This document shows positions 58,624-63,630 of a stretch of 64,000 nt of DNA, piece by piece. Position 1 is the first letter of the stretch. Every line of letters starts with the position of its first letter. Under the pieces are notes generated by a model that searched no databases, was not told where the DNA came from, and was given only the letters and a program-made list of their open reading frames with translations. Origin of the DNA: Methanosarcina sp. KYL-1. GTDB taxonomy: Archaea; Halobacteriota; Methanosarcinia; Methanosarcinales; Methanosarcinaceae. The translations under genes were made by a program, and so were the position numbers. The DNA lies in NCBI RefSeq assembly GCF_024372725.1, contig NZ_VOUA01000007.1, positions 62,001-126,000 of the forward strand, read 5' to 3'.

Positions 58624-59312
58624 ATAGGGTTTTAGTCAGATTTTATTAATACTCATCTAAGATTAAAATTATTCATGTTTCTTTCTGTTTTATGCATTTC
58701 ATTTTTAACGCAGGTTCTGGGTAATAATTGGAGCATTTCCCTTTTTAAAGTTTCATTATATAATCTTTATTGTTTTTCCCAAATTTTGTAATACGTTATT
58801 GCTCATGAACTGTATATTCACATCTTCTACTTCCTTCTTACAAATTTTGAAGTAACAACGTAAAGAATGGGTGTTAATATCCTATATATTTATTTAATTA
58901 TTTTTTTATTGTGTGTTCGTAGCATTTCGTTTTTTACAAACAGTTTCAAATCTTTATTTTTATATTTTTTTTGAACAACCTTTTATACTTTTGTACAGTA
59001 CATTCTTAATTGTAAATTAATGGATGAATATTTCTTCACAATATTATTTGTGAAGTATGTCCCTCCAAATGGCACAAAAACGCATGAATATTTTTGGTGT
59101 CATATAACAAATTTAGATGTGTGGAACTTAGACCTATTCCCTTAGAATCTGATCGTGGGGGCCAGTTACTGAAAGTTCATTTACAAAAATGACTCTCAAA
59201 TTTACTAAAACGATAAAATGTTCCTTTAGAGTTAGAGATTTGATCAATAACTCCCCCGCTGCCAAAATATTGGAGTAGTAAAAAATCATTCGCTGAAAAG
59301 GGGTTGTTAAAT
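58624..59312. other. AT-rich intergenic region before the PEF-CTERM gene
   Basis: The first 350 bases are T-rich without a gene. From about 59040 the sequence is less biased and includes the G-run gatcgtgggggcc at 59151, of unknown role. The last bases carry the gggg ribosome-binding site before ATG 59313. I saw no riboswitch or RNA gene that I could support. Confidence 0.45.
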
Positions 59313-59891
59313 ATGAAGAAGTCAATATTGTTACTGGCAAGTGCTTTGCTCATGCTGTCTCTTGCCGGGTCTGCAACGGCTAGCCCGTCTTTTATGTATA
59401 CGAATCCGGGTGATATCTACTTTAGTCCTTCATCAATAGGATATGCGGCAGTCGTAGTTTGGGACATTAACTGGGATGATGCCCAACCTAATCCTGGACA
59501 TCATAATAGGATTGCCTCATTGGAACCTGAAGTTGACAATCTAGAAGCGCGGCTAATTATCAAAACAAGTTCTGGCGATTTCGTCACCAACTGGGCAACC
59601 AAAGGCAATCCAGTAAGTGTAGTTTATAATACCGAATATAATAATTACGTAGATAAAGGTGTTTCTGGATTTAGTTCAGAGGACGAAGTTTCATATAGAT
59701 TAGAAGTACAAGGATCCGCAACAGGTCAGATTATATTACGCGATAAGTTTGAAACTGACGGTAATGAGGGGAGTGATTCCGCATGGGCGAGTCCTAGGGC
59801 TCAAGTCCCTGAATTCCCGACCGTTGCCCTCCCTGTAGCCGCAATCCTCGGACTTGTCTTCATCTTCGGGCGCAAGAAAGAAGGGTTATAA
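59313..59891 (+). CDS. PEF-CTERM surface protein
   Basis: A 192-residue secreted protein. It has a signal peptide (SILLLASALLMLSLAGSATA), a beta-rich soluble part, and a C-terminal sorting signal VPEFPTVALPVAAILGLVFI followed by FGRKKEGL. That is the PEF-CTERM pattern: Pro-Glu-Phe, a membrane helix and a basic end. PEF-CTERM proteins are substrates of archaeosortases, and the enzyme encoded at 53865 is a likely partner. I use the ATG at 59313 with an aagggg ribosome-binding site. The mature domain family is not recognised. Confidence 0.88.
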   Translation: MKKSILLLASALLMLSLAGSATASPSFMYTNPGDIYFSPSSIGYAAVVVWDINWDDAQPNPGHHNRIASLEPEVDNLEARLIIKTSSGDFVTNWATKGNPVSVVYNTEYNNYVDKGVSGFSSEDEVSYRLEVQGSATGQIILRDKFETDGNEGSDSAWASPRAQVPEFPTVALPVAAILGLVFIFGRKKEGL

Positions 59892-60186: not shown

Positions 60187-60412
60187 TAACGTAATCTTTA
60201 CAGTTATCGGGTTAATACAGTGGTTTTTTCTTATGGTGTCCGGGGATTAAATTTTTCTCAAGGGCACAATTTTATCTTTTTTTATGGATTACTTTTTCAT
60301 GGGTTAATATTATTTTTTTATTGTATTTCTTATTTTTTGAACACAGTTTTTATAAACAAGAACGTACTATTTTTAGTATCCTTTTAAATTAATTAAAAAG
60401 GGGAATATTATA

Positions 60413-61030
60413 ATGGTAAGTGTCGGTCAGGAATTGCTGAACGTTCCCTTCGGGGATATGATCAAGGAAATGGCCCTTGCGATTGCGGAAGGGCAGATGG
60501 CGCTCGACATGAACTCGGTCCAGGTTGCACAGGCCCTTGCGGCTACCGAACTGGCTCCCGGGAGTGTTGTGATGTATATCGAGGAAACCGTGGACGAAGA
60601 CGGGAACGTCACGGCAAGCAGAGTGGTCACAAACGATGCCCCCATGTCGCTTCTGACCTACGGGCTCGAGCCGCGTTTCTATGAATTCACGGAGTCCATC
60701 ATTGAGGTCAAGATGACAATTTCCATGATGAGGGAGACTTCTGCCGAAATGAATTACTCCCGGGAATTCAAGTTCACAAACACCTCAAAGGTCACAGGCA
60801 GCATGGAGTCCGGCGGGCTTTCAAAAATCCTCTTCGGAAAGGCAAAGGTAACTGCCGAAAACACAAACACCGTTGCTTACACCTCCACTTTTAATGCAAA
60901 GTACAGCTCCAAGTACACCTTCAAAGAGGAAGGGACAAGCCTGCTCAGGACAACCCTCAAGCCGGTCCCTGCACCTGAAAGGTCCATCCCGAAGATAACC
61001 GTTAAGGCCCCGTCGGGCGGGTCAAGCTGA
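60413..61030 (+). CDS. uncharacterised protein, first gene of the PASTA cluster
   Basis: A 205-residue soluble protein. The N-terminal 50 residues (PFGDMIKEMALAIAEGQMAL, DMNSVQVAQALAAT) form an amphipathic helix. The rest is beta-rich, with alternating segments (IIEVKMTISMMRETSAEMNY, KVTAENTNTVAYTSTFNAKY) and a Pro-, Lys- and Ser-rich tail. There is no signal peptide. Layout and short motifs recur in the next protein (for example EVxxxLARLLxEVGRSVAET versus this helix, and DLELKMSLTMKLEEE versus IIEVKMTISMM). I do not recognise a family. It has a strong AAAAAGGGG ribosome-binding-like site. Confidence 0.7.
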   Translation: MVSVGQELLNVPFGDMIKEMALAIAEGQMALDMNSVQVAQALAATELAPGSVVMYIEETVDEDGNVTASRVVTNDAPMSLLTYGLEPRFYEFTESIIEVKMTISMMRETSAEMNYSREFKFTNTSKVTGSMESGGLSKILFGKAKVTAENTNTVAYTSTFNAKYSSKYTFKEEGTSLLRTTLKPVPAPERSIPKITVKAPSGGSS

Positions 61031-61183
61031 GCCTTCCGGGCAAAAAGCTCCTTACTGCCGGCAGGCCACTCAATTTTTGAAGGGTGAAGTGCCGGCAGCT
61101 GCAGTACGGCCGTCTTAAGGCTCCCTGTGGGGTCCGGCTGTGCTGGTACATTTTTTCATAACTCGTTTCAAGGAGTTGTTAAT

Positions 61184-61588
61184 GTGGTTAAAAATGGGGA
61201 AGAGATCGAGGAAGTACTGATCACCCCCCTCGCCAGGCTTCTGGGCGAAGTCGGGCGTTCCGTGGCCGAGACCCAGAGGACTCTTGACCGGAACTCCATC
61301 AAGACCCAGCTTGAGATTGAAGAAGACGAGGGCCTGAAAGACTACGACATTCAGGCAACCTGGTACCATATCCCGGAAGTTGACCTCGAGCTTAAGATGT
61401 CGCTTACTATGAAGCTGGAAGAGGAACGGGATTCCAAAAACCTGGTGAGGGGTTATAAGCCGGTGCTCAATGCCGCGCCCTTGAATGCCTCGTACAACTC
61501 CCTGTATAGTTACGACGTGCGGGGTTCGAGCAGCATTAAGGCAAAAATCGTATCCATTCCGGCGTCTTCAAAGCTCAGGGAGGAGTAA
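61184..61588 (+). CDS. uncharacterised protein, second gene of the PASTA cluster
   Basis: A 134-residue soluble protein from a GTG start at 61184 (with aaggag upstream, 61169-61174). It is a shorter relative of the preceding one: an N-terminal helix (PLARLLGEVGRSVAETQRTL), a beta-type region (DLELKMSLTMKLEEERDSKN) and a C-terminal beta segment (NASYNSLYSYDVRGSSSIKA). An upstream frame is open but unconvincing. The two are likely to form a hetero-oligomer or act in series. Confidence 0.65.
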   Translation: MVKNGEEIEEVLITPLARLLGEVGRSVAETQRTLDRNSIKTQLEIEEDEGLKDYDIQATWYHIPEVDLELKMSLTMKLEEERDSKNLVRGYKPVLNAAPLNASYNSLYSYDVRGSSSIKAKIVSIPASSKLREE

Positions 61589-61609
61589 AGCCCTTTCAGG
61601 AGGAGTGGA

Positions 61610-63337
61610 ATGATGAATTTAAGTGAACTCAGGAACAATCTGGAGGTATTCAGAAAGTCGGGGGCAATAAACAGCGCAAGTTATACCACCCTTGCAGCTT
61701 CCCTGAAAGATGCGGAAACAGAGCTTGAGTCGGTGCAAAAGGAAGCTTCCGTTAACAAAGAACTTTCAAGCAAGCTGCTTGGGGAAAAGCTGACCCTTGA
61801 GCGGGAAAAGCTTGCCCTGTCAGTCCAGGTGGAAAAGCTTTCCAGGGAGAAGGCAGTGCTCGAGTCCCAGGTTTCTGTACTCCAGAGGACCAGGCCTGCC
61901 CTGTCGCCGGCAAATCTCGTGAGCACTTTTCGGGCTTCCCTGGAACAAATGGATAAAGGGCTCAAGACGGCACCTTCGGGGACAAATTACCAGGTCAGCA
62001 GTATGACCGTGAGCCTGAAGACCAACCTTGCCCTTGAGGGAGAAGAACTGAGGTTCCAGATGCCAAAGGCAGACGACATAATCCTTCCGGAAAACCTCAG
62101 CACGATAGAATTCTCCTTAAAGGCGGTCCCCCAAAAGCCGGACCTGACTTCATACGGGGAAGTCCCGGACCTGATCGGGCTCTTGCAGGAAACAGCCGAA
62201 GGCAAACTGCTGGAAGCAGGCTTCAAGGTAGGAGAAGTCCTGAAAAAGGAAAGCAGTGCCCCGCAGGGCACGGTCATAGCCCAGCTCCCCTCCGAAGGGT
62301 CACTGGCAGAACCCGGCGCAGTTGTGGACCTTGTAATTTCGGGAGCCTCTCCCGTGGAAGTCCCAAACCTTCTGGGGCTTGAGCTTGAAAGTGCAAAACA
62401 GGCCCTTGAAAAAACCAGGCTCCGGCTTGGCGGGGTCAGGGAACAGCCCTCGGAAGGAAAAGCTGGGGTAGTGCTTGCCCAGAGCCTCAGGGCAGGTTCG
62501 AAGGTAGACGCAGACTCAAGCCTGGTCCTTGTGGTTTCAAGTGATGTCCTTTCCGTCCCAAACCTGCTCGGGCTTGAGCTCGAAAGCGCCAAACAGGTCC
62601 TAGAAAAGTCCCTGCTCCAGTTAGGCGGCGTCAGGGAGCAGCCCTCGGAAGGAAAAGCCGGGGTAGTGCTTGCCCAGAGCCTCAAGCCCGGGACGGAAGC
62701 AAAAGTAAATTCAAGGATAATGCTTGTGGTTTCCACTGAAATTAAAAAAGAGACTCCTGAGATCATCGTCTCTGAAAAGCCGAAGAGGACTTTTCCTGAA
62801 ACCATTGTAAAACCGGCATCCGGAACTGTCGTAAAGCCTGTTGCGGAAACTACTGTAAAGCCTGTTGCAGAGACTACTGTAAAGCCTGTTGCAGAGACTA
62901 CTGTAAAGCCTGTTGCGGAAACTACTGTAAAACCTTCGACTGAGGAGCCCTCCAGGGTTTCGACAGAGCCTGCATTCAAGGCCCCTGTTGAGACTCCTGC
63001 TAAAGTTTCGACTGAAATTCCTGCTAGGGTTTCAGCTGATACTTTGCCAAAAAGGGTGGTTTCCGAACCTTCAAAGCCGGAAGTAAGGACTATTCCCAAC
63101 GTTGTTTCCCAGCCTCTTGAAAAAGCGGTTTCCCTTCTCGGAGGCGAAGGGCTGAAAGTAGGAAAGGTCTCTGAACTCTTAGCCCGGTCTCCTGCAGGAA
63201 CAGTTATCAGCCAGAGTCCCAGGGCCGGTTCCATAGCCAACCCGCTTATCCCTGTGGACCTTGTGGTTTCCAAAGGGATGCCGGCAATTAACCTGGACAG
63301 GAGCAGCATCTCTGGCATTTCCAGTCTGAGGCGTTGA
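61610..63337 (+). CDS. coiled-coil protein with four PASTA domains, no kinase
   Basis: A 575-residue protein with no signal peptide and no membrane helix. Residues 25-95 are coiled-coil (TELESVQKEASVNKELSSKL and beyond). Residues 105-175 are a beta-type region echoing the two upstream proteins (SSMTVSLKTNLALEGEELRF). PASTA domains lie at about 183-246, 249-311, 315-376 and 493-555 (VPNLLGLELESAKQALEKTR is domain 2; domain 3 is almost identical). A Thr-, Lys-, Pro-, Val-, Ala- and Glu-rich linker with four TVKPVAET repeats (406-441) joins the third and fourth. PASTA domains in bacteria bind muropeptides and belong to kinases and penicillin-binding proteins, but archaea of this type lack peptidoglycan. 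A strong aggaggag lies upstream. Confidence 0.85.
   Translation: MMNLSELRNNLEVFRKSGAINSASYTTLAASLKDAETELESVQKEASVNKELSSKLLGEKLTLEREKLALSVQVEKLSREKAVLESQVSVLQRTRPALSPANLVSTFRASLEQMDKGLKTAPSGTNYQVSSMTVSLKTNLALEGEELRFQMPKADDIILPENLSTIEFSLKAVPQKPDLTSYGEVPDLIGLLQETAEGKLLEAGFKVGEVLKKESSAPQGTVIAQLPSEGSLAEPGAVVDLVISGASPVEVPNLLGLELESAKQALEKTRLRLGGVREQPSEGKAGVVLAQSLRAGSKVDADSSLVLVVSSDVLSVPNLLGLELESAKQVLEKSLLQLGGVREQPSEGKAGVVLAQSLKPGTEAKVNSRIMLVVSTEIKKETPEIIVSEKPKRTFPETIVKPASGTVVKPVAETTVKPVAETTVKPVAETTVKPVAETTVKPSTEEPSRVSTEPAFKAPVETPAKVSTEIPARVSADTLPKRVVSEPSKPEVRTIPNVVSQPLEKAVSLLGGEGLKVGKVSELLARSPAGTVISQSPRAGSIANPLIPVDLVVSKGMPAINLDRSSISGISSLRR
62826..62935. repeat. 24-bp tandem repeat coding for TVKPVAET
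   Basis: Four near-identical 24-base units (two code GCG-GAA, two GCA-GAG at the same positions), plus a partial unit, encode repeated TVKPVAET in the linker of the PASTA protein. The variation is synonymous, so the expansion is older than the last few mutations. Length may vary between strains. Confidence 0.85.
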
Positions 63338-63366
63338 TCCTAAAATCTACCCTGAAGGTTTTTTCC

Positions 63367-63630
63367 ATGGTTCTGGAAACGCATCTGATAAAGATTTCCC
63401 CGGACGCCTCCCTCCCCCAGATTCAGGAAGTTCTCAAAACTGTCCTTATGGTGGGTGGAAGGATCGAAATGGCATCCGGGAAGACCATCATAGCGAGCTT
63501 CGACAATGCATATTCCGATCTTGTCAAGAAAAAGAAAGGTGTAGAGCTTGTTGGTGCGGTGAACTTCAGGGGACGAAAGATTCAGAAAGTCGTAAAAAAG
63601 GTTTCCAGAAAGGAAGGATCGAATTCTTAA
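63367..63630 (+). CDS. small basic protein, last gene of the PASTA cluster
   Basis: An 87-residue protein from ATG 63367. The frame can be extended to a TTG at 63334, overlapping the stop of the PASTA gene. The body is a ferredoxin-like alpha/beta pattern (THLIKISPDASLPQIQEVLK, MVGGRIEMASGKTIIASFDN, GVELVGAVNFRGRKIQKVVKK), similar in outline to inhibitor-I9 or propeptide-like folds, followed by a lysine-rich end. No catalytic residues are obvious. It could be a chaperone-like, inhibitory or DNA-facing partner in the cluster. Confidence 0.65.
   Translation: MVLETHLIKISPDASLPQIQEVLKTVLMVGGRIEMASGKTIIASFDNAYSDLVKKKKGVELVGAVNFRGRKIQKVVKKVSRKEGSNS

Follow-up and report, generated by a model that had tools for sequence, protein, structure and literature searches.

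Described PASTA proteins include the PknB/PrkC kinases, PBPs and SpoVD. Among archaea, Archaeoglobus fulgidus carries a cluster (AF0414-AF0417) that was found to be raised with lactate, and which resembles the locus reported here in consisting of short DUF2589-related genes, but for which no PASTA domain was reported (PMC3949148). A further domain, Trypco2, was described from conflict systems, such as those of the vWA-MoxR type (PMC7159879). The window analyzed here, i.e., a stretch of 64,000 nucleotides from Methanosarcina sp. KYL-1 (contig NZ_VOUA01000007.1, positions 62,001 to 126,000), contains a quartet of genes (A, B, C, and D) that combines DUF2589-like and PASTA proteins. Its C protein shares four bona fide PASTA domains with the kinases, PBPs and SpoVD, but lacks their kinase, transpeptidase or transmembrane parts, has an N-terminal coiled coil and a beta segment, and differs from them as well in having A, B, and D as operon partners.

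The preliminary description had reported four tightly spaced plus-strand genes, two of them for related soluble proteins. The four plus-strand open reading frames were recovered where expected, with A at 60413..61030 (205 aa; an N-terminal helix followed by a beta-rich region), B at 61184..61588 (134 aa), C at 61610..63337 (575 aa), and D at 63367..63630 (87 aa). Homologues were used to set the start of B (GTG at 61184) and to reset that of D (ATG at 63367, not TTG at 63334). The resulting gaps are 153 nt between A and B, 21 nt between B and C, and 29 nt between C and D, thus only B-C-D can be called tightly packed. A TATA-box-like element (TTTATAAA, approximately at 60350..60357 on the plus strand, read directly from the sequence) is located ~60 nt 5' of gene A. 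The gene found 5' of the quartet (59304-59891) codes for a secreted protein with a PEF-CTERM-like end (PEFPTVALPVAAILGLVFIFGRKK) and is unrelated to it. Hydropathy (maximum 19-residue KD mean 1.25 for A, 0.84 for B, 1.66 for C, and 0.94 for D) revealed neither a transmembrane segment nor a signal peptide in any of the four proteins; on this basis, the products look intracellular. All four proteins are devoid of Cys. D is indeed a small basic protein (net charge +8); a hint of the ferredoxin-like fold proposed for it at the outset came only from profile similarity to the propeptide of subtilisin E (1scj_B, I9-like), which was non-significant (E 0.5).

Four PASTA stretches were recognized in C (Pfam PF03793, E 3.3e-45, 152 bits vs. 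a cut-off of 23.2), the first three at 62159..62737 and the fourth, following a Pro/Thr-rich linker, at 63089..63274 (plus strand; contig position 125089-125274 for the latter), and the solved structures that they match are PASTA regions of kinases. No kinase domain was found in C: the NF033483 match stayed below its cut-off (128 vs. 450 bits) and was confined to the PASTA part, in agreement with the initial view that this coiled-coil protein carries four PASTA domains and no kinase. The architecture of the PADLOC PD-T4-6 defence kinase (kinase plus PASTA) was absent too, with matches restricted to the PASTA regions of C. PASTA was the only informative result of the single-protein searches (Pfam, NCBIfam, PHROGs, and PADLOC). 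A match of this strength might point to an envelope- or peptidoglycan-linked system, with PASTA serving, as in bacterial kinases, to sense or bind polymers of the wall, and one of the bacterial loci (L104) has a gene with PG_binding_1 and M15 peptidase domains directly 5' of the set. We hold such a role to be very improbable, given that A-D all lack a signal peptide or transmembrane segment, that Methanosarcina has no peptidoglycan, and that several bacterial C proteins have no PASTA domain.

The part of C that is constant across loci is the coiled coil together with the beta segment (61910..62140 on the plus strand in the window, about residues 101-177). The tail consists of PASTA domains in most archaea and in the bacterial loci L103 and L104, of PASTA plus HHH_5/DUF4332 in L034 and L056, and is absent in L066, L106, and L062. 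As PASTA is missing from several bacterial clusters and HhH/DUF4332 is added in some archaea, PASTA is not the defining part of the system and, judging by these domain compositions, appears to be its optional, exchangeable tail. Two loci (L028:932-5512 and L030) carry a giant additional C-type protein of about 1500 aa with many PASTA repeats directly 5' of the quartet. PASTA domains turned out not to be singular among archaea, with matches in 49 of the 60 sampled relatives, mostly to another small coiled-coil PASTA protein encoded elsewhere in the genome. In KYL-1, this second kinase-free protein (172 aa; coiled coil and one PASTA domain) is encoded on contig C9 (L151:3825-4343, about 61824-62342 of the contig) next to genes for TPR proteins, and similar single-PASTA open reading frames exist in nearly all sampled Methanosarcina; PASTA was rejected as a marker of the cluster for this reason.

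A scan of genomes recovered 39 A loci. When profiles of all four proteins were applied, the order A-B-C-D was found to be kept in 34 of the 35 archaeal loci not cut by contig ends, i.e., in the window and 33 others (three more loci were cut), the single exception being a divergent Methanophagales locus (L064) with A-B-C, in which D was not detected. The archaeal loci are related to each other and hence do not represent 34 independent events. The conserved order excludes chance. Co-conservation in order, which the preliminary description had suggested to look for, was therefore found in archaea, and reordered sets were present in bacteria. These observations support that the four genes form one unit and behave as a system. 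Identity to A amounts to 63-84% for most of the other archaeal loci and to about 35-55% for bacteria, where the quartet is sparse and was detected in three phyla (7/395, 1/296, and 1/296 sampled genomes). The bacterial gene orders are D-A-B-C (L061, L103, and L104), B-C-A (L065 and L066), and D fused to a glycosyltransferase followed by A-A-B-C-C (L062, L063, and L108). In L062 (3717-5897), the D-like domain forms the C-terminus of a GT4-type glycosyltransferase located 5' of A-A-B-C-C, and a large 903-aa gene, glycoside hydrolase-like in appearance, comes after the set. A Sphaerotilus plasmid has two A-type genes inside a run of five hypothetical genes. A divergent three-gene version was found in another Methanosarcina (G023, L150:13896-16235), comprising an A relative (97.2%) with an extra C-terminal region, a short B-like protein, and a C analogue ending in DUF4332/HhH without PASTA; it lies near a tRNA-like gene.

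Paralogy of the two related proteins A and B was established by hhalign (99.5%, E 2.6e-23). They are not family orphans, since the comparison of A with the uncharacterised family DUF2589 (PF11655; 15 strict members) gave 96.8% (E 2.5e-10, 173 columns), with a maximum of 5.7% for 60 reversed or column-shuffled decoys. The DUF2589 profile likewise recovered A proteins of bacteria (about 2e-7 at Z 1000) and none of 1000 shuffled sequences. B reached 0.3% when compared directly with the strict DUF2589 profile, and is joined to the family only through A (99.5%). Up to an E of 1, direct sequence searches with the Pfam DUF2589 model left A, B, and 25 A-family members without a match, and the KYL-1 genome gave none either. 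Profile comparison thus identifies A as a remote relative of DUF2589, and the kin of A and B is itself a family of unknown function rather than an already characterised one. The likeness comprises the nearly full-length profile-profile alignment of A, the tandem paralogue pairs, and the succession of an N-terminal helix and beta strands, but the A family remains below Pfam detection and the sampled DUF2589 clusters have no PASTA partner. DUF2589 genes of other archaea occur as tandem paralogue pairs, and in an Archaeoglobi-type locus (L137) the gene after such a pair encodes a third small protein, which the A/B profile recognizes (E 2.7e-5), a pattern expected of hetero-oligomers. The invariant residues of A are mostly Gly, Pro, or hydrophobic, with Cys and His absent, so that no active site is evident.

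The AF2 model of A was unusable (pLDDT 50), and that of B (mean pLDDT 76) consists of a long helix (residues 16-47) followed by strands. A search of PDB sequences with the A/B profile gave no match, and nothing significant was obtained when the B model was compared with PDB structures (Foldseek, VIA-align). The fold closest to it was that of a viral protein without a name (BFVD A0A516L4Y6, E 0.007, TM 0.55), and a T4 gp19-type tail-tube gene (L061:510-941, Pfam 3e-36) precedes D-A-B-C directly on an Acidimicrobiaceae MAG contig. Both could hint at derivation from, or partnership with, an apparatus of the phage-tail-like or contractile injection kind. The tail gene was, however, seen on this one contig only, no A homologue was found in viral contigs (pattern search) or phage records, and no PHROG match was significant; we therefore view a tail-related origin as quite unlikely.

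The N-terminal part of C had been said to echo both A and B. A resemblance was detected between the beta segment and B (hhalign probability 13%, pairwise E 0.002), which is only suggestive, while neither A nor D gave a signal against the C profile. The same segment weakly resembles Trypco2 (PF19631; 33%, E 4e-4), and we regard both likenesses as leads and not as proof. At the family score cut-off, Trypco2 matched neither C nor any other protein of the KYL-1 genome, and the quartet, in contrast to the vWA-MoxR conflict systems, has no trypsin-like protease. Trypco2 was also absent from 80 genomes of the phylum to which the genome of L061 belongs, and a search of plasmids with Trypco2 of the M. 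acetivorans type gave no match. In one genome (G015, L154:1216-3229), a Trypco2 protein is encoded beside a subtilase-TPR gene.

In Methanosarcina and Methanolobus loci with sufficient flanks, the quartet is mostly located directly 5' of the uL3-uL4-uL23-uL2 genes of the S10 operon (Pfam, tblastn), D and uL3 being 1.5 kb apart in KYL-1 and L032 forming an exception; other archaeal families have different neighbours. An A match was present in 26 of the 60 sampled relatives (a few being short fragments or a distant paralogue), a recognisable A is absent from about half of the sampled Methanosarcina, and broken remnants persist in some of them, such as G009 with a stop within A, beside B and C. 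In the A tree, Methanolobus, Methanosarcina, and ANME-type lineages were broadly grouped, which, taken together with loss and decay in many Methanosarcina, indicates that the system is mainly inherited in archaea, yet dispensable. Patchy retention with remnants, the sparse and scattered bacterial occurrences and the weak resemblance of the beta segment to Trypco2, a domain of conflict systems (PMC7159879), would all suit a module for stress or conflict (anti-virus), where C would detect its target, foreign or damaged, and A/B would carry out the response or keep it contained. This possibility appears unlikely to us, considering that the cluster encodes no nuclease, NTPase, protease, or toxin, that PADLOC matches came only via the PASTA part of PD-T4-6 kinases, that the chromosomal place 5' of the S10 operon is fixed and not an island, and that the archaeal A tree broadly tracks lineages.

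Paralogous subunits, fixed partners, modular tails, and the absence of residues that would be candidates for catalysis are best accommodated by a scaffold, compared with which the conflict, phage-tail, and envelope-sensor explanations are weaker. We thus propose, with a probability of roughly 50%, that the quartet is a cytosolic, non-enzymatic hetero-oligomeric assembly composed of DUF2589-like A and B, a coiled-coil hub (C), and an exchangeable, client-binding PASTA tail. A and B, each with an N-terminal helix and long beta strands, would together build the body of the complex, C would oligomerise via its coiled coil and dock on this body via its beta segment, the C-terminal modules of C (PASTA, PASTA plus HhH/DUF4332, or none in some bacteria) could act as multivalent arms for a client, and D, small and basic, may have an auxiliary role or aid assembly. 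The presumed absence of catalysis derives from residue conservation. The poor model of A, the fair model of B that has no PDB fold match, the weak link between C and B, and the dispensability implied by loss and decay in many Methanosarcina count against a scaffold. Of the undescribed intracellular scaffold or sensor envisaged at the outset, the intracellular look and the scaffold have stood, no description of the quartet was found in the literature searched, and the sensor received no direct support. A broader reading, which we advance tentatively and consider somewhat doubtful, is that of an undescribed cytosolic assembly common to archaea and bacteria, with DUF2589-superfamily subunits, a coiled-coil hub, and PASTA/HhH arms binding an intracellular ligand, where the use of PASTA would be unconnected with cell walls.

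DUF2589, an almost unstudied family that a single paper (PMC3949148) of the literature searched mentions once, is now tied to a four-gene system that is well delimited and whose partners are clear. The quartet suggests that organisms lacking peptidoglycan use PASTA inside the cell, as a module that can be exchanged. Given its conserved position 5' of the S10 operon and its recurrence in archaea and bacteria, the quartet can be put to the test as a candidate for a cellular complex of a new kind.
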